Origin: a virus
IMG/VR virus record: IMGVR_UViG_3300024255_000191
Location: 1 to 21,346 of that record
Reading direction: 5' to 3' (one strand)
DNA length: 21,346 nt
Within the stretch, counting starts at the first letter, position 1. Each line of letters begins with the position of its first letter. Both the position numbers and the translations under genes were made by a program. The notes beneath the pieces were generated by a model. It was given only the letters and a program-made list of their open reading frames with translations. It was not told the origin of the DNA and did not search any database. Shown here piece by piece: positions 1 through 14,308 of the stretch.

Positions 1-1
1 A

Positions 2-499
2 AAAAATGATGATGATGATGAGGACACTTGGTTGCAGTTCTTGTCATGTCACCTCATTGAATATCATTATGCTAAAACTTATGGGAAAGTTGATGAGGGT
101 AGTTGGGGAGGATACTTACATGCTTTAGGAAAATTGAAGGCTATGACATGGATTCATAATAATGATAAAGATGAGTATGATACTAGAAGTATTGTGAACA
201 GATTTATTTGTAATAATGTTGGTAAGTATGCTGACTGGGGATTTGCTACGGCAGAAGAATATGATCATGGTAATTATGAGTATGATCATATCTTTGTTTG
301 CCTATCTCCACAATATTTTCCACACAGTCAATGGGATATCTTTAGTGTCTTTCTAGGAATCTATGAAGATTTTACAGGTAAAGACTGTAAGTTAGATGAG
401 TTTTGGTATAAGAGAACTATTAATACGATGGCATATAGAAATGTATACGATACTTTAAAACCTGCATTAGAGGACATCAAAAGAAGTTTAGCTAAATAA
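2..499 (+). CDS. Unrecognised protein, 5' end outside window
   Basis: The reading frame is open from the first bases of the window and ends at a TAA at 497-499, so at least 165 C-terminal residues are present and the start is missing. The visible part opens with a short Asp/Glu tract encoded by a GAT repeat, then an aromatic-rich, acidic globular sequence (many Tyr, Trp, Phe and Asp) with no motif I recognise. In T4 the gene just upstream of regA is 62, the small clamp-loader subunit. I compared this sequence from memory with T4 gp62 and saw no resemblance, so I do not assign that function. It lies 22 bases before the chosen regA start and is probably cotranscribed with it. That it is a real gene is likely from its length and position; its function is unknown. 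Confidence 0.75.
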   Translation, partial: KNDDDDEDTWLQFLSCHLIEYHYAKTYGKVDEGSWGGYLHALGKLKAMTWIHNNDKDEYDTRSIVNRFICNNVGKYADWGFATAEEYDHGNYEYDHIFVCLSPQYFPHSQWDIFSVFLGIYEDFTGKDCKLDEFWYKRTINTMAYRNVYDTLKPALEDIKRSLAK

Positions 500-521
500 T
501 AAAAAGTTTTTGTTTTGTGAC

Positions 522-962
522 ATGAGCGTCGTTATTGAGCCGACCGTTGAGTGGTCGCCTGAGAACATGATTGAGGTTGTCCTAGGAGAACCTGACGATT
601 TTTTAAAAGTGCGAGAAACTCTGACTAGAATCGGTGTTGCATCTCGTAAAGAAAAAAAATTATATCAGTCTTGTCATATCTTACATAAGCAAGGTAGATA
701 TTTCATTGTTCACTTTAAAGAATTGTTTGCTCTTGATGGCAAGAAAGCAAATCTTACTGTTAATGATGTTCAACGCCGTAATAGAATTACACAACTCCTT
801 GCTGATTGGGGATTAATTTCTGTAGTTGTGGCTGAAATGATTCAGGATATTGCTCCTTTGAATCAGATTAAAGTTTTATCCTACAAAGATAAAGGGAATT
901 GGGCTTTAGAGACTAAGTATAACATTGGTCGTAAGGTTAAAGTTGAAGGCGAAGAAGGTTAA
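522..962 (+). CDS. regA: RegA translational repressor of early genes
   Basis: RegA is the T4 RNA-binding protein that represses translation of many early mRNAs, including its own, by binding near their start codons. The match to T4 RegA is clear: EPDDFLKVRETLTRIG near the N-terminus, then LYQSCHILHKQG, YFIVHFKELF, and DWGLI towards the C-terminus, in the T4 order. Starting at ATG 522 gives 146 residues, longer than T4 RegA (about 122), with a 15-residue N-terminal extension. The internal ATG at 567 (MIEVVL) aligns exactly with the T4 start (MIEITL) and is a serious alternative. Neither start has a good Shine-Dalgarno sequence. The gene is followed by a folded region and a strong terminator. 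In T4, regA is adjacent to gene 43; here a ParB-like gene, hsp20 and two small genes lie between them. Confidence 0.95.
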   Translation: MSVVIEPTVEWSPENMIEVVLGEPDDFLKVRETLTRIGVASRKEKKLYQSCHILHKQGRYFIVHFKELFALDGKKANLTVNDVQRRNRITQLLADWGLISVVVAEMIQDIAPLNQIKVLSYKDKGNWALETKYNIGRKVKVEGEEG

Positions 963-968
963 TAAATA
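961..968 (+). promoter_or_regulatory. Possible T4-type late promoter (AATAAATA)
   Basis: Seven of eight bases match the T4 late consensus TATAAATA. The motif overlaps the regA stop codon, and no gene start follows for 245 bases. A transcript from here would end at the terminator at 1026-1046, giving an RNA of about 70 nt. Seven-of-eight matches also occur inside coding sequence (for example near 5072 and 17232), so this one is weak on its own. Confidence 0.25.
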
Positions 969-1025
969 GATCGTCGCTCTTTCGTGCGCGACTCTCTACG
1001 ACGGATTCGCTACCAAAGTAGATAG

Positions 1026-1046
1026 GGGGCTTGACGCCCCTTTTTT
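1026..1046 (+). terminator. Rho-independent terminator after regA
   Basis: GGGGC at 1026-1030 pairs with GCCCC at 1036-1040 around the loop TTGAC, and is followed by six T at 1041-1046. It ends the regA transcript. The loop bases and the first base of the 3' arm also form the -35 box of the next promoter. Confidence 0.88.
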
Positions 1047-1059
1047 AATGGTGTATAAT
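1031..1059 (+). promoter_or_regulatory. Sigma70-type promoter nested in the regA terminator
   Basis: TTGACG at 1031-1036 (5/6 of the -35 consensus) is followed by a 17-base spacer and TATAAT at 1054-1059 (6/6). The expected start is near 1066. The -35 box lies in the loop and 3' arm of the preceding terminator, so one 34-bp segment ends one transcript and begins the next. It would drive the ParB-like gene through a 148-nt leader. T4-like phages of cyanobacteria use host-type promoters for early genes, so an early role is the natural reading. Confidence 0.8.
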
Positions 1060-1065
1060 ATGGAG

Positions 1066-1213
1066 GTCAGGGAGGGAGACCACCTTGACTGCGGTACTCC
1101 CCTTAGTAGGTTCAGGAGTAGCGGCGATAGGAACCTACTAAATATAATGTCTCAGCAGTTTTTGCTATCGAGACACCTAACGGTACAACCGTAGATTTTT
1201 ATCTAAAGAATTA
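1066..1213 (+). promoter_or_regulatory. Structured 5' leader or small RNA
   Basis: This is the stretch between the predicted transcription start and the ATG at 1214. It holds a perfect 11-bp stem (TTAGTAGGTTC at 1103-1113 with GAACCTACTAA at 1131-1141) around a 17-nt loop. A second hairpin follows (TGTCTC 1149-1154 with GAGACA 1170-1175, plus inner AGCA/TGCT), then a small CGGT-aca-ACCG hairpin at 1181-1191. Upstream, GGGAG at 1070-1074 can pair with CTCCC at 1097-1101. The two other sigma70-type promoters in the window have leaders of only about 17-18 nt, so this length and folding stand out. I recognise no known riboswitch or tRNA fold in it. Confidence 0.55.
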
Positions 1214-2248
1214 ATGACTAACACAGAACAGACCAGAAAAGGTTTTGGCGATATCCTGGATCTCGAAAATCCACAGTTAAAGAACCTACCCAAGCCTAAG
1301 CAAAAAAACGCAACATTCATCAAGTTTTCTTTCCTTGATCTCGATACCGTCGATGAAGAGGATGAGTATTATTGGAACCTTGCTGTCCGGGATGATCAGA
1401 ACAATACCTCTCGGATTGAAGCAATGCAAGTTTCATATATTAACTATGGATGGCTTTATAACGATTTCCCCCCTTGTATTGGTACTGACAATCGTCCTAG
1501 AGACGGTAGGACTCGTATCCTTGCAGCAAAGCGTGCTGGAGAGAGGTGGATTATTGTTGCTATCTTCTCATACGATGACGACGGTAGTCCAATCACTAGC
1601 TACATTTCCAATTCTCTTGCCTGTCAGCAGCGTCCTGCATCCACTGGTGTATGCATTAACGATTTTATTATGGCAGGGATTGCTTGTGTTAATGCTGGAG
1701 AATGCTTGCCAGAGAGATCTGCAGTAGAAGACCTCGTTTACAATGAACTGCAAGCTGAGAGCTTCTTCTCTCCTCGTGGAGGTGCCATAACCAAGATTGT
1801 CAACAAAATCCTTGATGATGTCTTGGAAGAAGGTACATCTGGTGGAATCACTGTTGTTAGGAGTCGTGAAGATTGGCAAACTTGGTTGGCAAAAGCCGGT
1901 TATGTAAAGGGAGATTATATTCTCCTATCGGTTGACAATCCAACTTATGCTATGAGGGCATGGTGTCAGCACTTGCTTCCACACTTTTCTAAGAACAAGT
2001 CCACAGCAACCATCATCCTTTACACCAACGCTAAGACTGGTACTAAAGCTCGGAGGTATATTTCTGAATTTGCAGTAAACCTCCAGTATTACTACACATC
2101 TTCATTTGCTATGGTAAATAGGGCACAGTCTGCTGTAGAGATCAAAGTAGCTGATCCTGCACCATACACTATTGCTGGAGCGATCCCTCAGATCCATGAC
2201 AATCACAACATTAATTCTTTTAAATTGGTAGATATCTCGGACTACTGA
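1214..2248 (+). CDS. Protein with ParB-like motif, function unknown
   Basis: A 344-residue soluble protein. Residues 97-110 (DGRTRILAAKRAGE), followed by a hydrophobic strand, resemble the core motif of the ParB/sulfiredoxin-like fold, in which a DGxxRxxAA segment binds nucleotide or phosphate. The rest, including a region around residues 200-330 with alternating strands and helices, is not recognised. No helix-turn-helix can be confirmed by eye, so a role in partition is not supported; phage ParB-like proteins are often nucleases or NTP-binding proteins. The gene stands alone between its own promoter (1031-1059) and terminator (2266-2289), with a folded leader and no clear Shine-Dalgarno, so its expression is probably controlled separately from its neighbours. 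The ParB-like call is inferred from one motif. Confidence 0.6.
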   Translation: MTNTEQTRKGFGDILDLENPQLKNLPKPKQKNATFIKFSFLDLDTVDEEDEYYWNLAVRDDQNNTSRIEAMQVSYINYGWLYNDFPPCIGTDNRPRDGRTRILAAKRAGERWIIVAIFSYDDDGSPITSYISNSLACQQRPASTGVCINDFIMAGIACVNAGECLPERSAVEDLVYNELQAESFFSPRGGAITKIVNKILDDVLEEGTSGGITVVRSREDWQTWLAKAGYVKGDYILLSVDNPTYAMRAWCQHLLPHFSKNKSTATIILYTNAKTGTKARRYISEFAVNLQYYYTSSFAMVNRAQSAVEIKVADPAPYTIAGAIPQIHDNHNINSFKLVDISDY

Positions 2249-2265
2249 TAACCGAATAAAAAATT

Positions 2266-2289
2266 ACGGGGTTCGCTACCCCGTTTTTT
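2266..2289 (+). terminator. Rho-independent terminator after the ParB-like gene
   Basis: ACGGGGT at 2266-2272 pairs with ACCCCGT at 2278-2284 around a TCGCT loop, giving a perfect 7-bp stem that runs into a T-run ending at 2289. Confidence 0.9.
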
Positions 2290-2299
2290 AATGTCGTCT

Positions 2300-2307
2300 A
2301 ATAAATA
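2300..2307 (+). promoter_or_regulatory. Possible late promoter before hsp20 (AATAAATA)
   Basis: Seven of eight bases match TATAAATA. The motif lies in the gap between the preceding terminator and hsp20, 64 bases before the ATG. I see no good sigma70 -35/-10 pair in this gap, so this is the best promoter candidate for hsp20, but the match is imperfect. Confidence 0.4.
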
Positions 2308-2350
2308 TTGATGGATGCCTTCGGGGTCCACACAACATAAACTCGCTTTT

Positions 2351-2357
2351 AAAGGAG
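2351..2357 (+). promoter_or_regulatory. Strong Shine-Dalgarno of hsp20
   Basis: AAAGGAG lies six bases before ATG 2364. It is the clearest ribosome-binding site in the window, where most genes have weak or no Shine-Dalgarno sequences. It fixes the hsp20 start and suggests high translation. Confidence 0.8.
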
Positions 2358-2363
2358 CTAAAA

Positions 2364-2798
2364 ATGACCGACCTTACTAAGTATGGTGCGTCTAACATTG
2401 ACCAATTTTTGGATCGTGTTCATCGCAACAGCATTGGTATGAACGAATACTTTGATCGTTTATACTCACTACATGAGACCACTACTAACTATCCTCCCTA
2501 CAACCTAGTATCCATAAATTCTGTAGAGTCCAGGCTAGAGATCGCCCTGGCAGGGTTTAAAAAGGCAGAGTTGTTTGTCTACACACAGGATGGCAAACTC
2601 TTTGTAGAGGGTCAGAAAGAGGACAAGGAGACCGAGACTACCTATCAGCATAAGGGACTAGCACAGAGGTCCTTTACGAGGGTATGGACGCTCTCTGAGG
2701 ATGTAGAAGTGAAGAGTGTAGAATTTGAGGATGGACTCCTTTCAATATGTCTAGCTAGGATAGTTCCAGAGCATCATCAACGCAAGGATTGGTTCTAA
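2364..2798 (+). CDS. hsp20: Hsp20 / small heat-shock protein
   Basis: A small heat-shock protein of 144 residues, an ATP-independent holdase chaperone of the IbpA type found in nearly all T4-like cyanophages. The alpha-crystallin domain runs from about residue 46 to 133. It starts with YPPYNLV, continues through ALAGFKKAEL (61-70) and the GKLFVEG strand, and ends with the G-L-L-S-I strand near 124-128. The N-terminal arm of about 45 residues has the DRVHRNSIGMNEYFDRL type sequence usual for IbpA-like proteins. The C-terminal tail is short, and I do not see a clear I-x-I motif, the element that normally links subunits into larger oligomers. Located between two terminators, it is probably its own transcription unit. 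Confidence 0.95.
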   Translation: MTDLTKYGASNIDQFLDRVHRNSIGMNEYFDRLYSLHETTTNYPPYNLVSINSVESRLEIALAGFKKAELFVYTQDGKLFVEGQKEDKETETTYQHKGLAQRSFTRVWTLSEDVEVKSVEFEDGLLSICLARIVPEHHQRKDWF

Positions 2799-2803
2799 AT
2801 ATC

Positions 2804-2828
2804 GGGGGGGTTGTTCACCCCCCATTTT
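2804..2828 (+). terminator. Rho-independent terminator after hsp20
   Basis: GGGGGGT at 2805-2811 pairs with ACCCCCC at 2817-2823 around the loop TGTTC, followed by ATTTTT. It ends the hsp20 unit and overlaps the next promoter in the same way as the terminator at 1026-1046. Confidence 0.82.
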
Positions 2829-2839
2829 TGTGGTATAAT
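2811..2839 (+). promoter_or_regulatory. Extended -10 promoter nested in the hsp20 terminator
   Basis: TATAAT at 2834-2839 is preceded by TGG, forming an extended -10 element (TGnTATAAT). Exactly 17 bases upstream is TTGTTC at 2811-2816, a weak -35 (3/6) that falls in the loop region of the hsp20 terminator. The expected start near 2846 leaves a leader of only about 16 nt before ATG 2862. It would drive the gp43-uvsX-gp41-mazG operon; the next terminator I find is at 10201. Confidence 0.75.
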
Positions 2840-2861
2840 ACCAAGAGGTAAAAAGCATACT

Positions 2862-3176
2862 ATGTCTGTTAGAGTAGCCATTATCGGTAATGATCAAATC
2901 ATTGCTGACATCAAAGAGTTGATTGATCCTGAAGACAAGGCTCGTCAATATATGTTCAACAATCCATATCGTGTTATCATGCAACCCACCATGTTGCTGA
3001 GTGAAGATGCAGGAGAGACCGCAGAAAATACATCCCAAGTATCTCTTGCTACTTGGCAACCACTCACGCAAGAGACAACCTTTATTGTCAACCCAAACTC
3101 GGTTCAAACTATCTTTGAACCAGTTGCTGATCTCAAGTCAATGTACCTGGAGCTAATCGATAATGTCACAAATTAA
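2862..3176 (+). CDS. Small conserved-type protein, paralog of the next gene
   Basis: A 104-residue acidic protein. The frame extends upstream, but the start chosen is ATG 2862 (MSVRVAII), because the predicted transcription start near 2846 lies just before it. The first strand, the central NPYRVIM segment, a T/L-x-x-W segment, a late I/V-rich segment and a final Y-L-E-L helix also occur in the same order in the following gene, which suggests tandem duplication. The predicted secondary structure is mainly strands with a C-terminal helix. I do not recognise the family. It is the first gene of the replication operon and its last 14 bases overlap the next gene. Confidence 0.8.
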   Translation: MSVRVAIIGNDQIIADIKELIDPEDKARQYMFNNPYRVIMQPTMLLSEDAGETAENTSQVSLATWQPLTQETTFIVNPNSVQTIFEPVADLKSMYLELIDNVTN

Positions 3177-3453
3177 AGTCATTGTATTTAAAGAAGACTA
3201 CAAGTGTATTATCGCTGGAATTGAGGAAGTTGGTGCTGACATTGGTGAGCCTGACTGTGAATTAGAAAACCCTTATGAGTTTGTAATTCAAGATGACGAT
3301 TTTGATGGAGACTACAAGGATCGTTTGACACCTTGGAAAGTGCTGAATATTTCCTCCGATAAGAAGTGTAGAATTCAAAGCGATACTATTCTAACTCTAG
3401 TTAACCCAGAGACATTTATTCTCGAAGCATACACCGAACTTACCAGTGAATGA
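3163..3453 (+). CDS. Small conserved-type protein, paralog of the previous gene
   Basis: A 96-residue, strongly acidic protein. Its order of motifs (IKVIVFKEDY, then NPYEFVIQ, LTPWKVL, and a final EAYTEL helix) parallels the upstream gene, so the two are probably diverged tandem copies. Residues about 45-57 are an Asp-rich stretch (DDDFDGD) that is absent from the sister protein. The start overlaps the upstream gene by 14 bases, and the stop forms an ATGA overlap with gp43, pointing to translational coupling. A possible role with the polymerase is suggested only by position. Confidence 0.82.
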   Translation: MSQIKVIVFKEDYKCIIAGIEEVGADIGEPDCELENPYEFVIQDDDFDGDYKDRLTPWKVLNISSDKKCRIQSDTILTLVNPETFILEAYTELTSE

Positions 3454-5945
3454 AATTTTACACTAATGTACAAATGATCGGGGACCAGTTCCTCGTTCGT
3501 GCTTATGATAATGGTGAGTACATTCAGTTTCGTGAAAAATACAAACCCACATTATTTGTTCCTGCCAAAAAGAAAACATACCATAAAACTCTCGATGGTG
3601 ATTATGTCGAACCAATTAAACCTGGTTTCGTCTCTGACTGTAGGGAGTTTTTAAAAAGCTATGGTGAGATAGACAACTTTAAGGTCTATGGTAATGAAAG
3701 GTATATCTATCAGTATATTTCTGATAAGTATCCTCAAGATGAAATTAAATTTGACGCTAGTAAGATTCGTCTTATTACTGTTGACATTGAAACTCGTGCT
3801 GAAAATGGATTTCCTGATGTTGAAGCAGCAGACCAAGAGATTCTGCTGATTACAATCCAGGATTATAATACAAAGGAGATCACAACTTGGGGGCAAGGTC
3901 CATTTAAGATCAAGCAAGATAATGTTCGCTATATTCAATTCAATAACGAGCGAGATCTTCTAAGTTCTTTCATCAACTGGTGGATGGAAAATACACCTGA
4001 TGTTGTTACCGGTTGGAATATTCAGCTTTTCGATATTCCATTTATTGCAAAGCGTATTGATCGTGTTCTTGGAGAGAAGATTGCTAAAAGGTTATCTCCT
4101 TGGGGATTAGTATCGCAAAAAGAAGTTTATATTAAGGGTCGTAGACAAGTCTTCTATGATATTGGTGGTATTACTCAGTTAGATTATCTTGATCTGTATA
4201 AGAAATTTACTTATACTAATCAGGAATCATATCGTCTTGATCATATTGCTAATGTAGAACTCGGTCAGAAAAAACTTGACCACTCTGAGTATGATACCTT
4301 TAAAGATTTCTATACACATGGTTGGCAGAAATTTGTAGAATACAACATTATCGATGTCGAGCTCGTAGACCGTCTTGAGGACAAGATGAAGTTGATCGAG
4401 CTAGCATTAACTATGGCATATGATGCCAAGGTAAATTATAATGATGTCTTCTATCAGGTAAGGATGTGGGATACTATAATCTACAACTACCTGAAGAAAA
4501 AAGGTATTGTTATTCCTCCCAAAGAAAAAACTGATAAGGATGAGAAGTATGCAGGTGCATATGTTAAGGAACCGATTCCGGGAGTTTATGATTGGGTTGT
4601 GTCTTTTGACCTTAACTCTCTTTACCCTCACCTTATTATGCAGTACAACATCTCTCCAGAGACCCTCCTCGACGAGAAACATCCAACAGCAACTGTTGAT
4701 AAGATTCTTAATGAGGAAATAAACTTTGAGTTGTATAAGGACAATGCCGTCTGTGCAAACGGTGCTATGTTCCGTAAAAATAAGAAGGGATTTTTGCCAG
4801 AGTTGATGGAGAAGATGTATGGTGAGCGGGTCATCTTTAAAAAGCGTATGCTCAAAGCCAAGCAGGAGTATGAGAAGACGCCTACTGAAGCACTTAAAAA
4901 GGAAATCGCTAGATGTAACAACATTCAAATGGCGAAGAAGATTTCTCTTAACTCTGCTTATGGTGCTATTGGTAATCAATATTTCAGGTACTTCAAATTA
5001 GCGAACGCAGAAGCTATTACTCTGTCTGGTCAGGTCTCTATTCGCTGGATTGAGACCAAGATGAATCAGTATCTAAATAAACTTTTGTCTACAGATGGTG
5101 AAGACTATGTTATCGCATCTGACACCGACTCAATTTATCTTAATCTCGGACCTCTTGTTACTAAATTTCTTGGTAATAAGTCTGGTGATAAAGCAGCAGT
5201 TGTGGCGTTACTTGACAAGATCTGTCAAGACAAGCTGGAGCCATACATCGATAAGTCGTATGAAAATCTGGCGAATTATGTCTCAGCATACGAACAAAAA
5301 ATGCAAATGAAGCGGGAGAATATCGCTGATCGCGGTATCTGGACTGCTAAGAAGAGATATATTCTAAATGTATGGAACAGTGAGGGCGTTCAGTACTCTG
5401 AACCAAAATTAAAAGTGATGGGTATCGAGGCTGTCAAGTCATCGACACCTGCACCCTGCCGTCAAATGCTTAAAGATTCTTTTAAGATTATGATGTCAGG
5501 ATCAGAAGATAATATGATAGACTACATAGATGACTGCCGTAAGAAATTCAAGCAACTAACTCCAGAGGACATTTCTTTCCCAAGATCTGTCAGTGATGTT
5601 GCAAAATATAAATCCTCTTCGGACATTTATTCTAAGGGAACACCAATCCACTGTCGTGGAGCTCTTCTATACAATCATTATATTAAGAAAGCGAATCTCA
5701 CTAACAAGTATTCGCTCATTCAAAATGGTGAAAAGATTAAATTCTGCTATTTGAAGAAACCGAATATCATTCATGAGAATGTTATTTCATTCATTCAAGA
5801 TTTTCCCAAGGAATTAAATATTACTAGATATGTTGACTACGATCTTCAATTTAGCAAGGCATTCTTAGAACCTTTGAGGACAATTCTAGATGCTATTGGG
5901 TGGTCTGTAGAAAAAACTGCAACTTTAGAGGACTTCTTCTCATGA
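3450..5945 (+). CDS. 43: DNA polymerase gp43, family B
   Basis: The replicative polymerase with 3'-5' proofreading, acting with the sliding clamp, helicase and primase. All family B signatures are present: Exo I (TVDIET, D112/E114), Exo II (GWNIQLFDIPF, N190/D195), Exo III (Y298-x3-D302), motif A (FDLNSLYPHL, D387), motif B (K497-x3-NSAYG), motif C (SDTDSIY, D558/D560) and KKRY at 634-637. All expected catalytic acids are intact. The C-terminal LEDFFS resembles the short hydrophobic peptide by which T4/RB69 polymerases bind the gp45 clamp. At 831 residues it is somewhat shorter than T4 gp43 (898). It starts in an ATGA overlap with the gene before and ends in another with the gene after. In T4 the polymerase mRNA is also autoregulated; I do not see a clear T4-like operator hairpin here. 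Confidence 0.99.
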   Translation: MKFYTNVQMIGDQFLVRAYDNGEYIQFREKYKPTLFVPAKKKTYHKTLDGDYVEPIKPGFVSDCREFLKSYGEIDNFKVYGNERYIYQYISDKYPQDEIKFDASKIRLITVDIETRAENGFPDVEAADQEILLITIQDYNTKEITTWGQGPFKIKQDNVRYIQFNNERDLLSSFINWWMENTPDVVTGWNIQLFDIPFIAKRIDRVLGEKIAKRLSPWGLVSQKEVYIKGRRQVFYDIGGITQLDYLDLYKKFTYTNQESYRLDHIANVELGQKKLDHSEYDTFKDFYTHGWQKFVEYNIIDVELVDRLEDKMKLIELALTMAYDAKVNYNDVFYQVRMWDTIIYNYLKKKGIVIPPKEKTDKDEKYAGAYVKEPIPGVYDWVVSFDLNSLYPHLIMQYNISPETLLDEKHPTATVDKILNEEINFELYKDNAVCANGAMFRKNKKGFLPELMEKMYGERVIFKKRMLKAKQEYEKTPTEALKKEIARCNNIQMAKKISLNSAYGAIGNQYFRYFKLANAEAITLSGQVSIRWIETKMNQYLNKLLSTDGEDYVIASDTDSIYLNLGPLVTKFLGNKSGDKAAVVALLDKICQDKLEPYIDKSYENLANYVSAYEQKMQMKRENIADRGIWTAKKRYILNVWNSEGVQYSEPKLKVMGIEAVKSSTPAPCRQMLKDSFKIMMSGSEDNMIDYIDDCRKKFKQLTPEDISFPRSVSDVAKYKSSSDIYSKGTPIHCRGALLYNHYIKKANLTNKYSLIQNGEKIKFCYLKKPNIIHENVISFIQDFPKELNITRYVDYDLQFSKAFLEPLRTILDAIGWSVEKTATLEDFFS

Positions 5946-6109
5946 ACGATCAAGAAAAGTGGAATAGAGGACTTGATCTTTTTATTGAGTCCGTTCATAA
6001 GCCAGATCAAGAACTTAGATCCTGTGCTCATAACCAAAAATGCTTTAATGAATTGCTGTCAGTGCGTGAAAATGTGCTAGAATACTTGAAAACATTGAGA
6101 TGGAGTTGA
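5942..6109 (+). CDS. Small 55-residue protein between gp43 and uvsX
   Basis: Starts in an ATGA overlap with the gp43 stop and ends with TGA directly abutting the uvsX ATG, so it is almost certainly translated as part of the operon. It is mainly helical and charged, with a C28-x-H30-x3-C34 cluster near the middle that could be structural or chance. I do not recognise a family. An upstream frame extension into gp43 exists but lacks operon-style spacing, so the ATG at 5942 is preferred. Confidence 0.75.
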   Translation: MNDQEKWNRGLDLFIESVHKPDQELRSCAHNQKCFNELLSVRENVLEYLKTLRWS

Positions 6110-7114
6110 ATGGATTTTCTTAAAGAGATTGTAAAAGAGATTGGAGATGACTATACTCAACTGGCAAAAGATATTGACGACACTGAAACTTATGTGGACA
6201 CGGGTTCTTACATTTTTAATTCACTGGTCTCAGGTAGCATATTTGGTGGTTGTTCTGGGAATAAGATTACTGCCATTGCTGGGGAGTCTAGCACTGGCAA
6301 AACTTTCTTTAGCCTCGCCGTCGTTCAAAATTTCCTTAACGCTAATCCTGACGGTTATTGTCTCTACTTTGACACTGAGGCAGCAATTAATAAGTCTCTT
6401 CTGGAGAGCCGTGGACTACCTCTTGATCGCTTGGTAGTTGTCAATGTTGTAACTATCGAAGAGTTTCGTAGTAAAGCATTGAAAGCAGTTGATTTGTATC
6501 TAAAGAAACCCGAAGGAGAGCGCAAACCATGTATGTTTGTATTAGATTCTCTTGGTATGCTCTCAACTGAGAAAGAGATCCGTGATGCTCTTGACGAGAA
6601 GCAGGTTCGTGATATGACAAAATCACAACTGGTCAAAGGTGCCTTCAGGATGTTGACATTGAAGTTGGGACAGGCTAAAATACCTATGATCGTTACCAAT
6701 CACACTTACGATGTCATCGGCGCATATGTACCTACAAAAGAAATGGGAGGAGGTAGTGGGCTCAAGTACGCTGCATCCACCATCATTTATTTGTCCAAGA
6801 AAAAAGAAAAAGACGGCACCGATGTCGTTGGAAACCTTATCAAGGCAAAGACTGCTAAGTCTCGTCTGAGTAAGGAGAACAAGGATGTCACTATTCGTTT
6901 ATACTATGATGAGCGTGGACTTGATCGTCATTATGGATTGCTTGAATTAGGAGAACTTGGGGGTCTCTGGAAGAATGTTGCGGGTCGTTATGAGATTGAT
7001 GGTAAGAAAGTCTATGCCAAGCAAGTCTACAAGGAACCTGAAAAGTATTTTACTGAAGAAGTAATGCAACAACTTGACGAGATTGCTCGCAAAGAATTTA
7101 GCTATGGCGAATGA
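6110..7114 (+). CDS. uvsX: UvsX RecA-like recombinase
   Basis: The T4-type strand-exchange protein for recombination-dependent replication and repair. Of 334 residues, the Walker A loop is GESSTGKT (58-65), a catalytic-type Glu is in YFDTEAA (E90), and Walker B is CMFVLDSLG (D146). The segment EMGGGSGLKYAAS (about 211-223) corresponds to the RecA/UvsX DNA-binding loop 2 region, and the following strand leads into the KAKTAKSR segment typical of UvsX. It is shorter than T4 UvsX (391), mainly because of compact termini. It lies directly between the 55-residue gene and gp41, with a 4-base overlap into the latter. Confidence 0.98.
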   Translation: MDFLKEIVKEIGDDYTQLAKDIDDTETYVDTGSYIFNSLVSGSIFGGCSGNKITAIAGESSTGKTFFSLAVVQNFLNANPDGYCLYFDTEAAINKSLLESRGLPLDRLVVVNVVTIEEFRSKALKAVDLYLKKPEGERKPCMFVLDSLGMLSTEKEIRDALDEKQVRDMTKSQLVKGAFRMLTLKLGQAKIPMIVTNHTYDVIGAYVPTKEMGGGSGLKYAASTIIYLSKKKEKDGTDVVGNLIKAKTAKSRLSKENKDVTIRLYYDERGLDRHYGLLELGELGGLWKNVAGRYEIDGKKVYAKQVYKEPEKYFTEEVMQQLDEIARKEFSYGE

Positions 7115-8493
7115 TGAGTGACCGCATTGAATTGACTATTCTGAGGAACCTCATCCATGATGAAGAGTTTCTCAGAAAGGTTCTTCCTTTTATAGAACCT
7201 GATTATTATGATGATCGTGCTGAAAAAATTATTTTTGAGGAGATAAGTTCTTTTGTAAATGAGTATGATAAGATTCTCACTCCAGAGATTCTTAGTATTG
7301 AGGTTCAGAATCGTGATGATCTTTCTGAACAGGAATGCAGAGATACCTTAAATTTGGTTGAGGTTCTAACTCAAAGCGATACTCATACTCAGTGGTTACT
7401 TGATGCTACTGAGAAGTGGTGTCGCGACCGTGCAATCTATTTGGCTCTGATGGAGTCCATTCAAATTGCTGACGGGCAAGATTCTAAAAAGACTAGAGAT
7501 GCTATTCCCAGTATCTTGTCGGATGCTCTTGCAGTCTCTTTTGATAATCATATCGGACATGATTATCTTGCGGACTATGAAGAACGCTACGAATCATACC
7601 ATCGTAAAGAAAATAAGATTCCATTTGATCTCGAATACTTTAATAAAATCACAAAAGGTGGTCTACCTAATAAAACACTTACTATTGGTTTAGCTGGTAC
7701 TGGTGTTGGTAAGTCTCTCTTTATGTGTCATGTTGCAAGTTCTGTACTTCTTCAGGGAAAGAATGTCCTTTACATAACTATGGAGATGTCCGAGGAAAAG
7801 ATTGCTGAGAGAATCGACGCCAATCTTCTTGATGTTAACATTAGAGATTTGAGTGAGTTGCCTCGTCATCTTTTCGAGACAAAAGTATCTAAGGTTGCTG
7901 CAAAAACTCAGGGAACTCTTATAATTAAAGAATATCCAACAGCAAGTGCCCATAGTGGCCATTTTAAATCTCTTCTCAACGATCTGGCACTTAAGAAATC
8001 TTTTCGCCCTGATATTATTTTCATTGACTACCTTAATATTTGTGCTTCCGCTAGGTATCGCGGAGCAGTCGGTGTCAATTCTTATAGTTATATCAAGGCT
8101 ATTGCTGAAGAACTTAGAGGATTGGCTGTCGAAGCCCAGGTCCCTATCGTATCTGCCACCCAGACCACTCGTTCTGGTTATAGTAGCAGTGATGTTGACA
8201 TTACTGACACTAGCGAGTCCTTTGGTCTCCCTGCTACTGCTGATCTTATGTTTGCCCTTATTTCATCTGAAGATCTTGAAGGACTCGGGCAGATCATGGT
8301 GAAGCAATTGAAGAATAGATACGGTGATCCAACAATGAATAAGAGGTTTGTGGTAGGAATAGATCGCGCTAAGATGAGGTTATATGATTGTGAACAATCG
8401 GATGGTGGATCTCTACTTGGTTCTGGAGATGAAAACAATGTAGCTGATTCTTTTACAAAAGAGAATAAGTTTGAGGGATTTAAATTTGATTAA
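7111..8493 (+). CDS. 41: Replicative DNA helicase gp41, DnaB-like
   Basis: The hexameric 5'-3' helicase of the T4-type replisome, working with primase gp61. The N-terminal helical domain spans about 1-145. The RecA-like motor begins with IPFDLEYFN and contains Walker A GLAGTGVGKS (193-202), the H1a motif TMEMSEEKIAERI (Glu at about 225), Walker B IIFIDYLN (D306) and the H3 motif SATQTTRSG (Q351). A basic KNRYGDP segment near 401 matches the late DnaB-family motif. At 460 residues it is close to T4 gp41 (475). Two ATG codons, at 7111 and 7114, overlap the uvsX stop and either could be used. Confidence 0.98.
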   Translation: MMSDRIELTILRNLIHDEEFLRKVLPFIEPDYYDDRAEKIIFEEISSFVNEYDKILTPEILSIEVQNRDDLSEQECRDTLNLVEVLTQSDTHTQWLLDATEKWCRDRAIYLALMESIQIADGQDSKKTRDAIPSILSDALAVSFDNHIGHDYLADYEERYESYHRKENKIPFDLEYFNKITKGGLPNKTLTIGLAGTGVGKSLFMCHVASSVLLQGKNVLYITMEMSEEKIAERIDANLLDVNIRDLSELPRHLFETKVSKVAAKTQGTLIIKEYPTASAHSGHFKSLLNDLALKKSFRPDIIFIDYLNICASARYRGAVGVNSYSYIKAIAEELRGLAVEAQVPIVSATQTTRSGYSSSDVDITDTSESFGLPATADLMFALISSEDLEGLGQIMVKQLKNRYGDPTMNKRFVVGIDRAKMRLYDCEQSDGGSLLGSGDENNVADSFTKENKFEGFKFD

Positions 8494-9346
8494 CTCATCA
8501 ACAAAAATTTGGAAAGAAATCTCAGAGGTAAATAACCTTGAGTTTGAATATCATTTACTGCCTGGTAATGTTCCAATCCTTATTGCAAATAATGTTTTTC
8601 TTTATCCAGACAAAGTGCAAGAGTTTTTAGAAAGTCTTGACTACTGGGAGACTAAAGACTTTGATGATAGTGATATTGTTCGTCCTGGAATGACACACCA
8701 ATTCACTCCAAATCTTTTCTCTATGCTTGGACATCAACTTACTCAAAAATTTAAGAAAATTTTTGGTGTTAATGACATGTCAATAATTGATATGTACACT
8801 CAAGCTACGAGCGGTACAATGGGATTAGATGTTACTGGGGGACTTTGTTGTTATCCTCATATGGATTCAGATCCATTTGATAGTATTGAGACTGAGAGAC
8901 CATGCATTGTTGCAAACATCAATCTCTCAAAAAGTTCTGACCCTGTAACTACTGGATTTTGGTCTTGGAGGGGTAAGAACAATGTCTTAGACTTTAATAG
9001 GGAGGATAAAAATACCTTAATCAACTTCTATGATCGTCATGAGGAACAGTCAATAGATAAATGGTTTCAAGTTCATGACTATGAGGATTTTAAATTTGAA
9101 AGTTCTGCTACTATGATGTATAATAGCCTTGTGGTCTATCCCACAGGGTGTATTCATAATCCTTACATCAAACCTAACTGGTTTTCTGATAAGGAAAGAA
9201 TAGTATTATCTGCTTTTTATTCTATTCAACCAGAAAATTTAGACTTTGAAGAAAAAAATGCTGATATTGTTTCTTATACCTGGGAGCATTTCCGACTAGA
9301 TACATTATTCAATTATCACCCACAATTCACTTCTCCACAATCATAA
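8486..9346 (+). CDS. Fe(II)/2-oxoglutarate oxygenase-like protein
   Basis: The frame has no ATG near its beginning. The preferred start is TTG 8486, because GAGGG at 8473-8477 sits eight bases upstream; TTG 8471 is the other option. This gives 286 residues. The residues expected of a double-stranded beta-helix dioxygenase are visible: H125-x-D127 (YPHMDSD), a distal His in CIHNPY (H224) and a following Arg in KERIVLSAFYS (R238), the usual 2-oxoglutarate contact. The layout resembles the DUF6445-type putative oxygenases. The substrate is unknown. It overlaps the end of gp41 and is two bases from mazG. The fold assignment is inferred from the ligand pattern. Confidence 0.75.
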   Translation: MINSSTKIWKEISEVNNLEFEYHLLPGNVPILIANNVFLYPDKVQEFLESLDYWETKDFDDSDIVRPGMTHQFTPNLFSMLGHQLTQKFKKIFGVNDMSIIDMYTQATSGTMGLDVTGGLCCYPHMDSDPFDSIETERPCIVANINLSKSSDPVTTGFWSWRGKNNVLDFNREDKNTLINFYDRHEEQSIDKWFQVHDYEDFKFESSATMMYNSLVVYPTGCIHNPYIKPNWFSDKERIVLSAFYSIQPENLDFEEKNADIVSYTWEHFRLDTLFNYHPQFTSPQS

Positions 9347-9348
9347 TT

Positions 9349-10014
9349 ATGCCTACTTATTCTAATGCAATCGCTGATGGGACACCCGATCCACAGCGTC
9401 CTACTGCTACTCCTCCTCGCCGTCCTCGTGCCAAGGAGTTTTGGGAGGTAGAACCTGGTGATCCTGGTACTGAGGGTTGGTCTGATAATCCAGAAGATCC
9501 TAAGGGTGCTCAACTTGGTAACCCAGCTATTGAAAATCCACCCACTCCTGTTCCTCCTACTCCTCCTGCTCCCCCTGAACCTACCATTCCGGTAGTCTTG
9601 ACTTCTTCTCAAACCCCTCCCAAGGATGGTTACCTTGAGTTTGTCGATCAAGTAACCAGTGCTCCCTCTAAAGATCCCTCACAATTTATTGCTAGAATTG
9701 CTGCTCTTCAAGCAGGTGGTTGTGAGATTCAGCGTCTTCTAACTGCTGCTGTAGGTATCTCTGCTGAAGGTGGTGAGTTCATGGAGATTGTTAAGAAGAT
9801 CATTTTCCAAGGAAAGCCTTGGGAAGAAGATAACATTGAGCATCTAAAGATTGAATTGGGCGATGTTATGTGGTATGTTGCTCAGGCATGCATGGCACTT
9901 GATATTTCTCTTGAAGAAGTTCTTGATCGTAATATTGATAAATTGTCAAAGCGTTATCCCACGGGAACCTTTGATGCTTACTATTCAGAAAATCGTAAAT
10001 CTGGCGACAGATAA
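9349..10014 (+). CDS. mazG: MazG nucleotide pyrophosphohydrolase with Pro-rich extension
   Basis: All-alpha NTP pyrophosphatase of the MazG family, common in T4-like cyanophages, hydrolysing (d)NTPs to monophosphates. Residues about 94-210 form the catalytic unit: E140, E143 and E146 in SAEGGEFMEIVKK, and E169-LGD172 in LKIELGDVMWYV, the metal-binding helices. The phage protein would act on host or viral nucleotide pools; the substrate cannot be read from sequence. Unusual is the N-terminal extension of about 93 residues, low in complexity and rich in Pro, Asp and Glu, with a PPTPVPPTPPAPPEP tract at 64-78. No internal ATG would remove it. It follows the oxygenase by two bases and its TAA overlaps the next ATG (TAATG). 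Confidence 0.93.
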   Translation: MPTYSNAIADGTPDPQRPTATPPRRPRAKEFWEVEPGDPGTEGWSDNPEDPKGAQLGNPAIENPPTPVPPTPPAPPEPTIPVVLTSSQTPPKDGYLEFVDQVTSAPSKDPSQFIARIAALQAGGCEIQRLLTAAVGISAEGGEFMEIVKKIIFQGKPWEEDNIEHLKIELGDVMWYVAQACMALDISLEEVLDRNIDKLSKRYPTGTFDAYYSENRKSGDR

Positions 10015-10208
10015 TGTTCAGTCTCTGGATCCACCTACGAGCATTCTTTTCTGTTGTAGTGGTGAGTTGTGCTCACCCTGTCAACTGGGAGCATTGTGTT
10101 CGTGTGGACCAGTGGCTTTTGCCAGAAGTTAAGGAAGGGTATAGACTGTGGACAGGTGAGATAACACCGTATCAGTCTGAAAATGACTATCTAAATAACA
10201 GGGAGTAG
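10014..10208 (+). CDS. Small lipoprotein-like or membrane protein
   Basis: A 64-residue protein starting in a TAATG overlap with mazG. The N-terminus has a short basic/polar lead and a hydrophobic core (residues 10-18), ending in VVSC at 16-19. This fits a lipobox (small residue before Cys) and would make Cys19 the lipidated first residue of a mature protein of about 46 residues. A single-pass membrane protein is the alternative. The mature part is acidic with several Trp/Tyr. Its stop codon TAG at 10206-10208 lies in the loop of the terminator hairpin that closes this operon. Function unknown; an envelope role in infected cells is a guess. Confidence 0.65.
   Translation: MFSLWIHLRAFFSVVVVSCAHPVNWEHCVRVDQWLLPEVKEGYRLWTGEITPYQSENDYLNNRE
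10190..10197 (+). promoter_or_regulatory. Possible late promoter (TCTAAATA) just before a terminator hairpin
   Basis: Seven of eight bases match TATAAATA. It lies 34 bases before ATG 10224, the same distance as the perfect motif at 20300 before its gene. The expected start, about six bases after the motif, is near 10203, inside the 5' arm of the terminator at 10201-10222. One identical match inside gp43 (near 5072) shows that the motif can occur by chance. Confidence 0.4.
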
Positions 10209-10222
10209 TACTCCCTTTTTTT
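10201..10222 (+). terminator. Terminator ending the gp43-mazG operon
   Basis: GGGAG at 10201-10205 pairs with CTCCC at 10211-10215 around the loop TAGTA, followed by seven T at 10216-10222. The next gene's ATG begins two bases later, at 10224. It is the first convincing terminator downstream of the promoter at 2811-2839. Confidence 0.82.
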
Positions 10223-10223
10223 A

Positions 10224-11558
10224 ATGGCCGAACCGTCTGAAGGATTTTTTGCTGGTTGTGCATTATGCAGCAATCTAGAAATGGATGCTGCTGTCAAAGA
10301 TGAGACAAGCCTTCAAAACTTTTACAACACCATGTATCAGAGGTATACGGGTCCCTCTGTTATTGGTGCTGGTAGTGTAAAAAAAGATTTTGAGAAAGCA
10401 GTAACCTTAACTCCATCAACAAAAAAAGATAAGTTTTATTCTGATCTTGTTGTAGGTATCTCTGCAGTAAAAGCAGTCAGATCTTTTCTTGCTACAAATT
10501 CTGCAATGAAGGGTATATCAGGGAATGCAACTCCTAATGCGGTATACTTAACAGGTACACAATGGCCTAAAGAAGTTCAGCAATTTAAGTTTGCTGCTTT
10601 TGGTATGGCAGACTTTAACTCTTCTGATTTGATTCTTCAGTATGGATCTAATTATGTTGGGGTATCTTTAAAGAAAAAACCAAAAGGAACTGCACCGGAC
10701 CCGACTCTAATCAATAAAGCATTTGATACTGTATTGAATGGACCTCAATTTGCTCCCATAAAAGCACAGTTGCAGCAAGCTAGACAGAATTTTTTTGCTG
10801 GAGTAATTAGGGACGCATTAACTAGTGGTCCTTTAGTTGGACTTGCTCAACTTCCTGATGGATCTAATCCTAGAAATGCTCCACCGGAAAAACTTTGGAG
10901 CACTAGGATTGGCATCTATAAAAATGGTAAGATTCAAACAGTTCCTTTAATTAATCTAAAAGATGTATCTGCTATTGGTGATCCAGCTCTTTTGAATACT
11001 AAAGAGGTTGATCGCAAAACAACTAATGCGATGCGTGATTATGTAAACATGAGGCTTGGTAAAGTCGGCAACCAACCCAATACTTTATATAAACAGTTTC
11101 TATCTATCATCAAAACGAATCAGCAATTGTTTGCTGATACCTTAATCAATCTTATCCTTAAGAAACAATTAATGGATGAGATGAGTGAGTATACTAGAAA
11201 TAACTTTGAATTTATCTTGACCACTGGGGTAGGACAGGTTACAATATCTAAGTCTACCGGCATGAATATTCAGGAAGGTAGTGGTAATTGTATTGGTATT
11301 GATAGCGTTGCACTTGCTCTTGCTTATCTTAAAAGACAACCTAAGACCATTGATATAGATACTGCAAAAACAGAGTCATCAAATGCGGCTAAGTTATTTT
11401 TCAAAGTTAGAGCAGGTACACTAGATCTCTTAGAACTTGAGTTAAGATATAAGGGTGACTTTAAATCTCAACCTCAGTTCCAAGCATTTCTTTCCCCCCA
11501 GTTTAAATCATTACTTAAAGGTGATTTTGGAAACGCACGAAACATTATTTTTGGTTAA
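10224..11558 (+). CDS. Unrecognised 444-residue protein, possible nuclease-like segment
   Basis: A soluble protein with C12-x2-C15 near the N-terminus and long helical stretches. Residues 126-151 read as FGMADFNSSD, then LILQYG, then VGVSLKKK: an Asp at the start of a strand (D130 or D135) followed by a strand ending S-x-K (S148/K150). This recalls the D...(E/Q/S)-x-K active site of PD-(D/E)XK phosphodiesterases, but it is only a pattern by eye. There is no Shine-Dalgarno, and the start codon follows directly on a terminator T-run. Position in the virion-type block and a possible late promoter suggest late expression. A structural role is equally possible. Confidence 0.8.
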   Translation: MAEPSEGFFAGCALCSNLEMDAAVKDETSLQNFYNTMYQRYTGPSVIGAGSVKKDFEKAVTLTPSTKKDKFYSDLVVGISAVKAVRSFLATNSAMKGISGNATPNAVYLTGTQWPKEVQQFKFAAFGMADFNSSDLILQYGSNYVGVSLKKKPKGTAPDPTLINKAFDTVLNGPQFAPIKAQLQQARQNFFAGVIRDALTSGPLVGLAQLPDGSNPRNAPPEKLWSTRIGIYKNGKIQTVPLINLKDVSAIGDPALLNTKEVDRKTTNAMRDYVNMRLGKVGNQPNTLYKQFLSIIKTNQQLFADTLINLILKKQLMDEMSEYTRNNFEFILTTGVGQVTISKSTGMNIQEGSGNCIGIDSVALALAYLKRQPKTIDIDTAKTESSNAAKLFFKVRAGTLDLLELELRYKGDFKSQPQFQAFLSPQFKSLLKGDFGNARNIIFG

Positions 11559-12164
11559 ATGTACACTGATTTATTTCCAACTCGATTATACAAATACAAT
11601 TTACAGGCACCTGATCTAAGACAAAGTATGCTGGATAGGTATGCATCTTGGAAAGATCATTCAATGAATGGAACTCCCGAAGGATGGAGTTGTGATGTTA
11701 GAACAGAATTTCAAGGAGCTTTCCCTCAAGAGATTAAGAAGCGTTATGATGATGTTCTAAGAGAATGGAGAGATGAATTTGGATTATTTGATCGTCCATA
11801 TATTGATGAGATTTGGATGAACGCCTATGAGCAATCTCAATTTCAAGAATCTCATTCTCATCTACCTGGATTTTTTTCTGGAATTCATTATCTAGTATAT
11901 GATCCTGAAGAGCATGAAGCTACTACATTTCAAAACCCACAGGACTCTATACATTCTTTTATGTTTGATGACGAGTTCCTGGATGGAGATATTAATAAGC
12001 ACCTATGTGAGAATCATACCCCTAAGGTTGAGGAGGGTGATATTATTTTATTCCCATCTCATTTGAAACATTTTGTTAAAAAGAATGACAGCAAAAATCT
12101 TCGTATAACTATATCCTTTAACATAAATAGAATTGCGGAGTCTACTCGACGGGTTTTTTCGTAG
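11559..12164 (+). CDS. Putative 2OG-Fe(II) oxygenase (phage family)
   Basis: A 201-residue protein starting right after the previous TAA. It matches the pattern of the 2OG-FeII_Oxy_5-type phage oxygenases. WMNAYEQSQFQESHSH gives the first ligand pair (H99/H101), followed by FFSGIHYLVYDP. EEGDIILFPSHLKHFV supplies the distal His (H171), and LRITISFNI the Arg (R182). Such genes are abundant in T4-like cyanophages and are thought to hydroxylate protein or nucleic-acid targets; the substrate is unknown here. It is a different subfamily from the oxygenase at 8486. Its 3' end contains a CATAAATA late-promoter-like motif. Confidence 0.85.
   Translation: MYTDLFPTRLYKYNLQAPDLRQSMLDRYASWKDHSMNGTPEGWSCDVRTEFQGAFPQEIKKRYDDVLREWRDEFGLFDRPYIDEIWMNAYEQSQFQESHSHLPGFFSGIHYLVYDPEEHEATTFQNPQDSIHSFMFDDEFLDGDINKHLCENHTPKVEEGDIILFPSHLKHFVKKNDSKNLRITISFNINRIAESTRRVFS
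12122..12129 (+). promoter_or_regulatory. Possible late promoter (CATAAATA) for the nucleotidyltransferase
   Basis: Seven of eight bases match TATAAATA, at 45 bases before ATG 12167 and inside the end of the oxygenase gene. It is weaker evidence than the perfect copies ahead of the next genes, but it fits the same spacing pattern. Confidence 0.4.
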
Positions 12165-12166
12165 TA

Positions 12167-13363
12167 ATGAAGAATTTTTTCCAATTCTTAAATGAGGCGC
12201 AGACAAACGCTGCAAAGCAAGCGAAGAAGCTTGGTTTAAAGGGTGATGGTCATGGGTCATGGGTAGATCCAACTGGAAAAATTGTTGGTAGAACCATAGA
12301 AGGTGAGTTAGTTTTTTCTAGTGGTAGAAAACCATCACAAGAAACTGATCCAACAAAACCTGGACGGGCAGCAAGAGCTTTACCCCCAGAAAATCCTCCT
12401 CCTTCAGCACAACAAAGTGGTGGAGTTGGTGAACCAGAAGAGCAGGAAGAGGTAGAAAAGACTCGCGGCGCTGTTACTATTGGGTTTGGTAGATTTAATC
12501 CTCCTACAGCAGGTCACGAAAAATTACTTGATACTATTAAAGATACTGCGGAGGGTGGGTCTTATATGATATATCCATCCCACTCAGTAGATCCACAGAA
12601 AAATCCTCTTGATTCTGAGACTAAAGTTCTCTTTATGAAGAAGATGTTTCCTACACATGCGAATGCGATCATATATGATCCTAGCATTCGTACCATACTA
12701 GACGCACTGAAGCAAGCCGATGTCGAAGGATATAGTAGCGTCAACATCGTGGTTGGTGCTGACAGACAAAAAGAGTTTGAGGGGCTCGCGAACAAATACA
12801 ACGGGCAACTCTATAATTTTGATGCGATTAATGTCATCTCTGCAGGAGAACGGGATCCCGATGCTGAAGGGGTTGAGGGTATGTCTGCTTCCAAATTACG
12901 AGCCTTAGCTGCTGATGGTGACTTTGAGTCTTTCAAGAAAGGACTACCCAAGTCTGCTAAAGGAATGGTTGCAAGAGAACTATTCAATACAGTACAGAGA
13001 TCTATGGGTGCTGCAGCTGTAACAGAGGGCGTAGAGTTGTGGCAAATTGCTCCTAAGTTTGATGAAAAAACTTTGAGAGAGCATTATATTATTGGCAATA
13101 TGTTTGATCTGGGATCTCTTGTAGAATCTTTAAATACCGGACTTGTTGGTAGGATTATTAGACGCGGTGCAAATCATGTTATCGCAGTTACATCTGAGGG
13201 TATTATGTTCAAATCTTGGATTAGAGATTTGACTGAATATGTTTCTAGAATTCCTTCTGGAGTTCCTGCAAATAAGAGAGAAGTTGGAACAGATACTTAT
13301 AGAGAATATGTTCAGAAACTTACTCCATTAGAAAAGGTTAAGTCCTTTATAAATAAAAGATAG
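12167..13363 (+). CDS. Cytidylyltransferase-fold nucleotidyltransferase, likely virion protein
   Basis: 398 residues in several modules. Residues 1-11 (MKNFFQFLNEA) resemble the T4 capsid-targeting peptide of internal head proteins, with an L-x-E cleavage site for the gp21 protease after E10. Residues 15-51 form a GDGHGSWVDPTGK-type module that I have seen in other marine T4-like virion proteins. A Pro/Glu-rich linker follows (about 55-98). The catalytic domain has GRFNPPTAGH (108-117, the T/HxGH nucleotide-binding motif), VVGADR (195-200) and MSASKLR (239-245, the ISSTxxR-like motif), as in NMN or phosphopantetheine adenylyltransferases. The C-terminal part (about 290-398) contains a RRGANHVIAV...FKSWIRDL module. 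The transferase fold is clear; substrate and packaging are inferred. Confidence 0.88.
   Translation: MKNFFQFLNEAQTNAAKQAKKLGLKGDGHGSWVDPTGKIVGRTIEGELVFSSGRKPSQETDPTKPGRAARALPPENPPPSAQQSGGVGEPEEQEEVEKTRGAVTIGFGRFNPPTAGHEKLLDTIKDTAEGGSYMIYPSHSVDPQKNPLDSETKVLFMKKMFPTHANAIIYDPSIRTILDALKQADVEGYSSVNIVVGADRQKEFEGLANKYNGQLYNFDAINVISAGERDPDAEGVEGMSASKLRALAADGDFESFKKGLPKSAKGMVARELFNTVQRSMGAAAVTEGVELWQIAPKFDEKTLREHYIIGNMFDLGSLVESLNTGLVGRIIRRGANHVIAVTSEGIMFKSWIRDLTEYVSRIPSGVPANKREVGTDTYREYVQKLTPLEKVKSFINKR
13348..13355 (+). promoter_or_regulatory. T4-type late promoter TATAAATA (perfect)
   Basis: Eight of eight bases match the late consensus. It lies in the last codons of the nucleotidyltransferase gene, 40 bases before ATG 13388. 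In T4 this motif is read by the gp55 sigma-like factor with gp33 and the clamp. Confidence 0.7.
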
Positions 13364-13387
13364 GAGACTGCTGAGCTTTCAGGATCG

Positions 13388-14071
13388 ATGAAAAATTTTA
13401 TTGAAGATACAGCCGATCAGATCATGCTTAATAGCATGGCAAATGTTTTTATGGAAAAACTTGATCCCGTAGGTCAGGAAGATGATGATATTGATAATGA
13501 TGGCAAGAAAAATACTAAGTCAGATTCTTATCTAAGAAACCGTCGTAAGTCTGTCGGTGCTGCTATTGCTGCTGATAAGGCAAAGATCGTAAAGAAAGAG
13601 CAGGTTGAATTATCTCTCCGTGAGAGAGTAGCGGAATTGACCGAAAAAAAGCTTTATAAGTCTGAGAAAGCTACGACCTCAGATGAAAAAGAAGTAGAAA
13701 TTTCAGAGAAGTCTGTAAAAAATAAAGTAACTATTAATCCTGACATTCAAGAAGGTAAGAAAGGTCTCTGGGATAATATCCATGCCAAGCGCAAGCGTGG
13801 CGAAAAACCTGCTAAGAAGGGTGATAAGGATTATCCTAAAACATTAAATATTGAGCAGACTGAAGATTCTCTGAGAGACCGTCGCATGGAGCGCGGTGGG
13901 GTTGATGGCAACAACCGTTACAATAAGGCATCAGGTAAACCTAATACCTTTGGTAAGAAGAAGAGTTCTTCTGATGGACCTTCTGCCTTGGATGTTGTGA
14001 AAGCAAAGATCCGTGCTAAGTACGGTGATAAAGCAATCGTGGATACTAAGAAGAAAAAAGAAAAAGATTAA
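13388..14071 (+). CDS. Lys/Asp-rich virion-type protein
   Basis: A 227-residue, very charged, probably largely disordered protein with lysine clusters at both middle and end. Residues 30-47 (QEDDDIDNDGKKNTKSDS) contain a D-x-D-x-D-G pattern like calcium-binding loops. They are followed by YLRNRRK, a combination I associate with other marine T4-like phage structural proteins. Residues 126-150 (GLWDNIHAKRKRGEKPAKKG and following) are a second recurrent module of that kind. The sequence begins MKNF like the upstream gene, but no L/I-x-E site follows at once. A perfect late promoter precedes it. Its specific role, whether head-internal or tail-associated, is unknown. Confidence 0.82.
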   Translation: MKNFIEDTADQIMLNSMANVFMEKLDPVGQEDDDIDNDGKKNTKSDSYLRNRRKSVGAAIAADKAKIVKKEQVELSLRERVAELTEKKLYKSEKATTSDEKEVEISEKSVKNKVTINPDIQEGKKGLWDNIHAKRKRGEKPAKKGDKDYPKTLNIEQTEDSLRDRRMERGGVDGNNRYNKASGKPNTFGKKKSSSDGPSALDVVKAKIRAKYGDKAIVDTKKKKEKD

Positions 14072-14081
14072 GCCTATATAA

Positions 14082-14097
14082 GAGAAGTTCACTTCTC
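14082..14097 (+). other. Short hairpin before the next gene
   Basis: GAGAAG at 14082-14087 pairs with CTTCTC at 14092-14097 around a four-base loop, between the Lys-rich gene and ATG 14103. There is no T-run after it, so it is not a terminator. It could protect or regulate an mRNA end. Confidence 0.4.
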
Positions 14098-14102
14098 AAA
14101 TA

Positions 14103-14306: not shown

Positions 14307-14308
14307 GT

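Follow-up and report, generated by a model that had tools for sequence, protein, structure and literature searches.

Terminator and promoter share the same bases downstream of regA in a T4-like cyanophage, and the predicted start of this promoter coincides with the first base of a conserved RNA, built from a 5'-terminal hairpin and an H-type pseudoknot. The site was studied within a window of 21,346 nt, i.e., the whole stretch of an IMG/VR virus record that was analysed, which carries regA, hsp20 and a DNA polymerase gene. Judged from sequence, we give the overall explanation, i.e., a terminator-promoter hybrid and a pseudoknot RNA that is started at its +1 as an RNA gene, a probability of about 0.8.

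Layout and recurrence of the terminator-promoter hybrid

The gene of the translation repressor regA (519-962, plus strand; phrog_242, E 3e-63) lies upstream of the terminator and ends with the stop codon TAA at 960-962. The intrinsic terminator (1024-1046, plus strand) reads A1024, GGGGGC 1025-1030, TTGAC 1031-1035, GCCCC 1036-1040 and TTTTTT 1041-1046. That is, the stem 1024-1030/1036-1042 encloses the loop TTGAC, and its outer pairs (to 1024/1042) use the two leading T of the T-run 1041-1046. The first-pass annotation had placed the hairpin at 1026-1040; its loop and the T-run to 1046 hold, while the real stem extends over 1024-1042. The sigma70-type promoter (1031-1059, plus strand) consists of TTGACG (1031-1036), a 17-nt spacer (1037-1053) and TATAAT (1054-1059), with its predicted +1 at 1066. 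Direct reading of the bases confirms that TTGACG stands exactly 17 nt before a perfect TATAAT and that, as had been claimed, both signals share DNA, an overlap that recurs in cyanophages: the loop of the terminator, extended by one base of the stem, forms the -35 box, and the T-run falls within the promoter spacer.

Both signals were also picked up by independent scans, the promoter with 11/12 matches at spacing 17 (-35 and -10 boxes 16-18 nt apart) and the terminator as a GC hairpin with T-run (7 pairs, 5 of them G-C, 6 T). The RNA of 1010-1050 folds into the terminator hairpin with -13.8 kcal/mol (z -2.75). Terminator-like hairpins occur at about twice the shuffle level in window positions 1-20000 (25 vs. 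11.9). Taken alone, promoter-like sites are no more frequent in the window than chance predicts (55 against 56 expected). The composite hybrid site is found once in the window, compared to 0.01 per dinucleotide shuffle (3/300 whole-window shuffles with one).

Recurrence was assessed on distinct TTGAC..TTTTT..TATAAT sites in phage DNA that were collected without regard to hairpins. Among the matches listed, TTGAC lies in a hairpin of at least 5 bp in 64/159 sites; frequencies from such collection-wide scans are those of samples, and the counts apply among the matches listed. The respective value is 4.0% when the 20 upstream bases are shuffled and 6/71 for sites with TTGAC and T-run but without a -10 box. 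All 64 hairpin sites show a promoter spacing of 16-18, and 56 distinct stems are found among them. A second sample comprised 45 terminators picked by a conserved upstream hairpin, blind to promoters. Here, a -10 box (at least 5/6 match) follows at 16-17 nt in 10/14 terminators with -35-like loops (at least 5/6 match) but only in 3/31 with other loops (p 6.4e-5 for the difference). Finally, the hybrid pattern was found 17 times in 24 whole phage records (in 13 of them, nearly always in clear hairpins), with 0 occurrences of the reversed pattern in the same records. In ACG-2014f, S-SKS1, P-SSM2, S-SM2, Bellamy and S-CREM1, the sequence around the pattern can be seen to form hairpins. One copy each in S-SM2, S-B43 and RB11-B carries TTGAC not in a terminal loop but in an internal loop of a more extended hairpin. 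The first-pass annotation had suggested a search for this arrangement in related genomes, where it does recur, with unrelated stems and above the shuffle and pattern controls. Because the hybrid recurs with unrelated stems and the loop/-10 association is found in an independent set, comparative sequence evidence indicates that terminator and promoter are co-selected in cyanophages, their spacing of 16-17 nt being kept while the stem sequence changes. The hybrid very probably serves as both terminator and promoter.

A universal hybrid 3' of regA was rejected, with 5/77 diverse regA loci showing it under the criteria used, plus the family of the window. Both signals are present in 10/77 regA loci, and at many loci the -10 box sits farther from the terminator. 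P-SSM2 carries the hybrid directly after regA (AY939844.2:142801-142828; L409). There, TTGACA is located in the terminator loop and contains the regA stop TGA, such that three signals fall on common bases; this reading rests on the annotated regA end at 142804. Two close relatives of the window (L005, L006) keep the hybrid with another stem, GACCCCTG-CTTGA-CAGGGGTC, and a -10 box TATAAA(TA) that is compatible with the late motif, too. Among 15 bacterial genomes (~60 Mb), a count at the level of the sequence pattern gave 38 matches, 23 of them in two genomes and mostly AT-rich; on this count, the hybrid was rejected as a general bacterial feature. A full-text search of the open literature found nothing relevant on promoter/terminator overlap of this kind, the single match concerning chromosomal rearrangements.

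On the upstream side, the regA stop overlaps a late promoter motif AATAAATA (961-968, plus strand), which fits the late promoter motif NATAAATA of cyanomyoviruses (PMC2984593). It is followed by the conserved hairpin GTCGC-TC-TTTCGTGC-GCGAC (973-992, plus strand) with loop UUUCGUGC, the probable 5' hairpin of a late small RNA. Hairpins with this loop, which is invariant by search design, were found at ~58 distinct sites, also away from regA, with covarying stems (among them GTCGC/GCGAC, GAGACC/GGTCTC, GCGATC/GGTCGC and GTCAC/GTGAC). Since the order of AAATA motif, covarying-stem hairpin and terminator recurs in 45 non-redundant units, the hybrid terminator is probably the end of a late small RNA as well. 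Its earlier designation as the regA terminator is therefore correct in that it ends regA but incomplete. The layout of the probable late-RNA unit, i.e., NATAAATA-like motif, UUUCGUGC hairpin, CGGAA stretch and terminator, covers 961-1046 in the window, and such units are also present at L005-L010, L043, L067, L352, L458, L490 and others. Farther downstream (2311-2330), a GGATGCC-TTCG-GGGTCC hairpin precedes hsp20, and a similar sequence follows many regA-region terminators in other cyanophages.

A pseudoknot RNA registered to the promoter

A BLAST search with the region downstream of the hybrid revealed similarity from the TATAAT box onward to unannotated DNA of other cyanophages, and reading these matched sequences led to the recognition of a hairpin P1 and an H-type pseudoknot, an RNA that the first-pass annotation had overlooked. 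In the window, the RNA covers 1066-1139 (~75 nt, plus strand). P1, its 5'-terminal hairpin (1066-1089), pairs 1066-1072 with 1083-1089, as given by folding and covariation. The pseudoknot (1092-1139) combines helix S1 (1092-1100 with 1115-1123, including a G1094xG1121 mismatch) with helix S2 (1105-1113 with 1131-1139), both supported by covariation, and has the loops L1 (1101-1104) and L3 (1124-1130).

A core-pattern scan of IMG/VR provided at least 120 members, and the RNA is found in more than 100 cyanophage contigs. The scan imposed the letters TTCAGG....G.GGC.ATAGGAA, the conservation of which is not claimed; the S-SM2 and Bellamy members, found by a covariance model that leaves out helix S1, differ at these positions. 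The pattern used for searching constrained the loop side only in part, and the pairing partners were free to vary. Within 53 diverse members, 99.8% of the cells of the 17 pseudoknot pairs are paired and double-sided changes are observed for 11/17 pairs. The covariation score is 0.524, compared to 0.195 for shuffled and at most 0.13 for slid alignments, and P1 covaries as well. The element thus shows the two interleaved, covarying helices of an H-type pseudoknot.

In Rfam 15, no family matches the RNA; an E limit as high as 10 gave only snoRNA/lncRNA noise, and weak matches (SNORD39, snoR101, others) were dismissed as such. A bacterial origin was rejected, as the 15 exact-core matches in bacterial genome contigs belong to unrelated taxa, come without flanking similarity and are attributed to chance; a host counterpart was not found in these contigs either. 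From these searches, the pseudoknot RNA is a previously uncatalogued element that is widespread in cyanophages, and it is almost certainly real and expressed.

We also related the 5' end of the RNA to the promoter, using 91 non-redundant members that bear one (at least 9/12 match, spacing 16-18). In 85/91 members, P1 begins with the 7th base downstream of the -10 box, always a G. P1 starts at position 6 in one member and at 8 in another, while the remaining four failed the strict stem rule but show a similar sequence at position 7. For the window, the first P1 base is G1066, i.e., the start that the first-pass annotation had predicted. As a strong independent mark, such a registration of a conserved RNA 5' end to +1 suggests that the promoter is used. 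Given that P1 begins at the predicted +1 in 85/91 members, transcription should yield a pseudoknot RNA whose 5' nucleotide is part of a helix from the outset.

Genomic context, proposed explanation and alternatives

With the covariance model, 17 records were positive, each with exactly one strong copy of the RNA, and no copy was obtained for S-PM2, Syn9, P-SSM4, S-CREM1, S-CRM01 and T4. Out of 109 non-redundant members, 58 have a tRNA within 4 nt downstream, either tRNA-Arg (48) or tRNA-Pro (10), and the others lie upstream of unrelated ORFs, including purM in P-SSM2. The downstream ORF of the window (1214-2248, plus strand; 344 aa) has no PHROG and no Pfam match above the cut-off; weak sub-threshold Pfam matches and six relatives in IMG/VR were observed.

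Individual loci vary around this arrangement. L005 and L006, which represent the same locus as window positions 1060-1160, keep the hybrid and a TGTCTCAACAG 5' UTR hairpin while the pseudoknot RNA is missing, i.e., they differ from the window by a clean presence/absence between -10 box and 5' UTR. In L089, L115, L127 and L206, a second consensus promoter 0-30 nt past the RNA separates it from the next gene. Several members in tRNA-Arg contexts (L099-L119, L207, L211) apparently have their promoter (TTGACG-17-TATGAT) and the 5' arm of P1 within the end of the preceding ORF. At two loci (L087:2662-2872, L090:2633-2843), the tRNA-Arg downstream of the pseudoknot RNA is immediately followed by a manA RNA (RF01745), which is flanked by tRNAs.

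We propose that the short hybrid stretch would end the upstream transcripts, i.e., regA and the probable late small RNA, while its bases would double as parts of a host-sigma70-type promoter, the loop as -35 box and the stem arm with the T-run as spacer. Termination and initiation in vivo would be carried out by unmodified host polymerase, the use of which has been argued for cyanomyoviruses (PMC2984593). Launched exactly at +1, the ~75-nt RNA with its 5'-terminal hairpin and subsequent H-type pseudoknot would constitute a self-contained phage RNA gene whose transcription reads on into whatever adjoins. Before tRNAs, it may be freed via RNase P cleavage, whereas elsewhere it would remain the 5' end of an mRNA. 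The paired 5'-terminal G and the pseudoknot may shield it from 5'-end-dependent decay. Finally, the RNA would function as its own product instead of switching one particular gene downstream.

This last step is close to an even bet. A role mainly as own product is favoured because the RNA occurs as a single copy with a constant 5' end and is followed by differing genes; that is, we infer its leading role from copy number and context. The RNA may also act in cis on its own transcript, as a stability cap, a put-like antiterminator to which its own transcribing polymerase binds, or a ligand-binding switch, and we consider this a real possibility at somewhat below even odds. Where a promoter is present, the RNA is always at the extreme 5' end, which is paired. 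The transcripts headed by it are diverse, and their start codons often lie 12-34 nt past the GGAA core of the RNA. Such a role fits less well with only one copy per genome, with the unrelated nature of the genes that follow (tRNAs in about half of the members) and with a promoter right after the RNA in some members; furthermore, inspection revealed neither a terminator attached to the RNA nor sequestration of a ribosome site. For a riboswitch in particular, the diversity of the downstream genes, including tRNAs, argues against this identity.

The hybrid itself could couple termination with initiation, for which the first-pass annotation had named polymerase stalling in the T-run or a roadblock by promoter-bound polymerase. 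An RNAP that ends in the T-run would stay and re-initiate, or a promoter-bound RNAP would help the upstream one to stop, such that re-initiation would become more frequent, or termination tighter, through the overlap. After intrinsic termination, E. coli RNAP usually stays on the DNA, slides and can re-initiate nearby, an effect said to depend on the terminator-promoter distance (PMC6978380). This recycling makes coupling plausible, and the recurring hybrid sets the distance near zero. Nevertheless, we regard coupling as unlikely, since compactness alone can explain the overlap in a dense phage genome and the -10 box is farther from the terminator at many loci. It is also rather improbable that the site is a dual early/late promoter, with the terminator limiting readthrough from the late promoter at 961-968. 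The NATAAATA motif 60 nt upstream, TATAAATA at the -10 position of L005 and L006 and the precedent of overlapping early and late promoters proposed for cyanomyoviruses (PMC2984593) would fit, but the -10 box of the window is TATAAT and not TATAAATA, and positions 1054-1059 show TATAATAT instead of the T4-type late promoter motif NATAAATA. That terminator and promoter fell together once by coincidence, as the chance frequency of promoter-like sites in the window might suggest, is already contradicted by the comparative tests (56 distinct stems with promoter-type spacing, the loop/-10 association in independently chosen terminators, no reversed patterns, few shuffles with a hybrid) and can be set aside.

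Under the proposed hybrid and RNA gene, selection in compact phage genomes could act on terminator and promoter as a unit, and hybrids provide natural constructs for asking whether polymerase re-initiates directly after termination. In viruses that infect the main photosynthetic organisms of the ocean, the pseudoknot RNA represents a widespread, so far uncatalogued phage RNA that covaries strongly and whose 5' end is fixed. Its presence in the cultured phages P-SSM2, S-SM2 and S-SKS1 makes expression and role directly testable.

Relation to known systems

Adjacent intrinsic terminators and sigma70 promoters are general phage punctuation, with which the hybrid has the GC hairpin, the T-run and TTGACA-17-TATAAT in common. 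The difference is that the hairpin loop of the cyanophage hybrid is the -35 box and its T-run the spacer.

With manA, wcaG, PhotoRC-II, the glnA/glutamine riboswitch and CfrI, T4-like cyanophages likewise carry structured RNAs, some of which are located in 5' UTRs or near tRNAs like the pseudoknot RNA. In ACG-2014f and S-B43, manA is even directly downstream of the tRNA that follows it. In contrast to these, the pseudoknot RNA has no Rfam family (covariance models of manA, wcaG, PhotoRC-II and glnA do not match it) and its 5' end is locked to the promoter's +1.

The put RNA antiterminators of phage HK022 are small RNA structures near the start of phage transcripts, a position shared by the pseudoknot RNA, which differs from them by being single-copy and by its pseudoknot.

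H-type pseudoknots are also formed by ToxI-type antitoxins and their phage mimics. A type III antitoxin (ToxI-like) was rejected, as the cyanophage RNA is a single unit with one copy per genome and diverse downstream genes, i.e., it has neither tandem repeats nor an adjoining toxin gene. Like these, it could act on a host protein. Tentatively, we picture a single-copy RNA gene with promoter-locked 5' end that would work as its own product and have a factor of the host as its target, be it a ribonuclease, RNA polymerase or a defence protein, often with a tRNA as 3' processing signal and, in some lineages, launched from a terminator that doubles as promoter.
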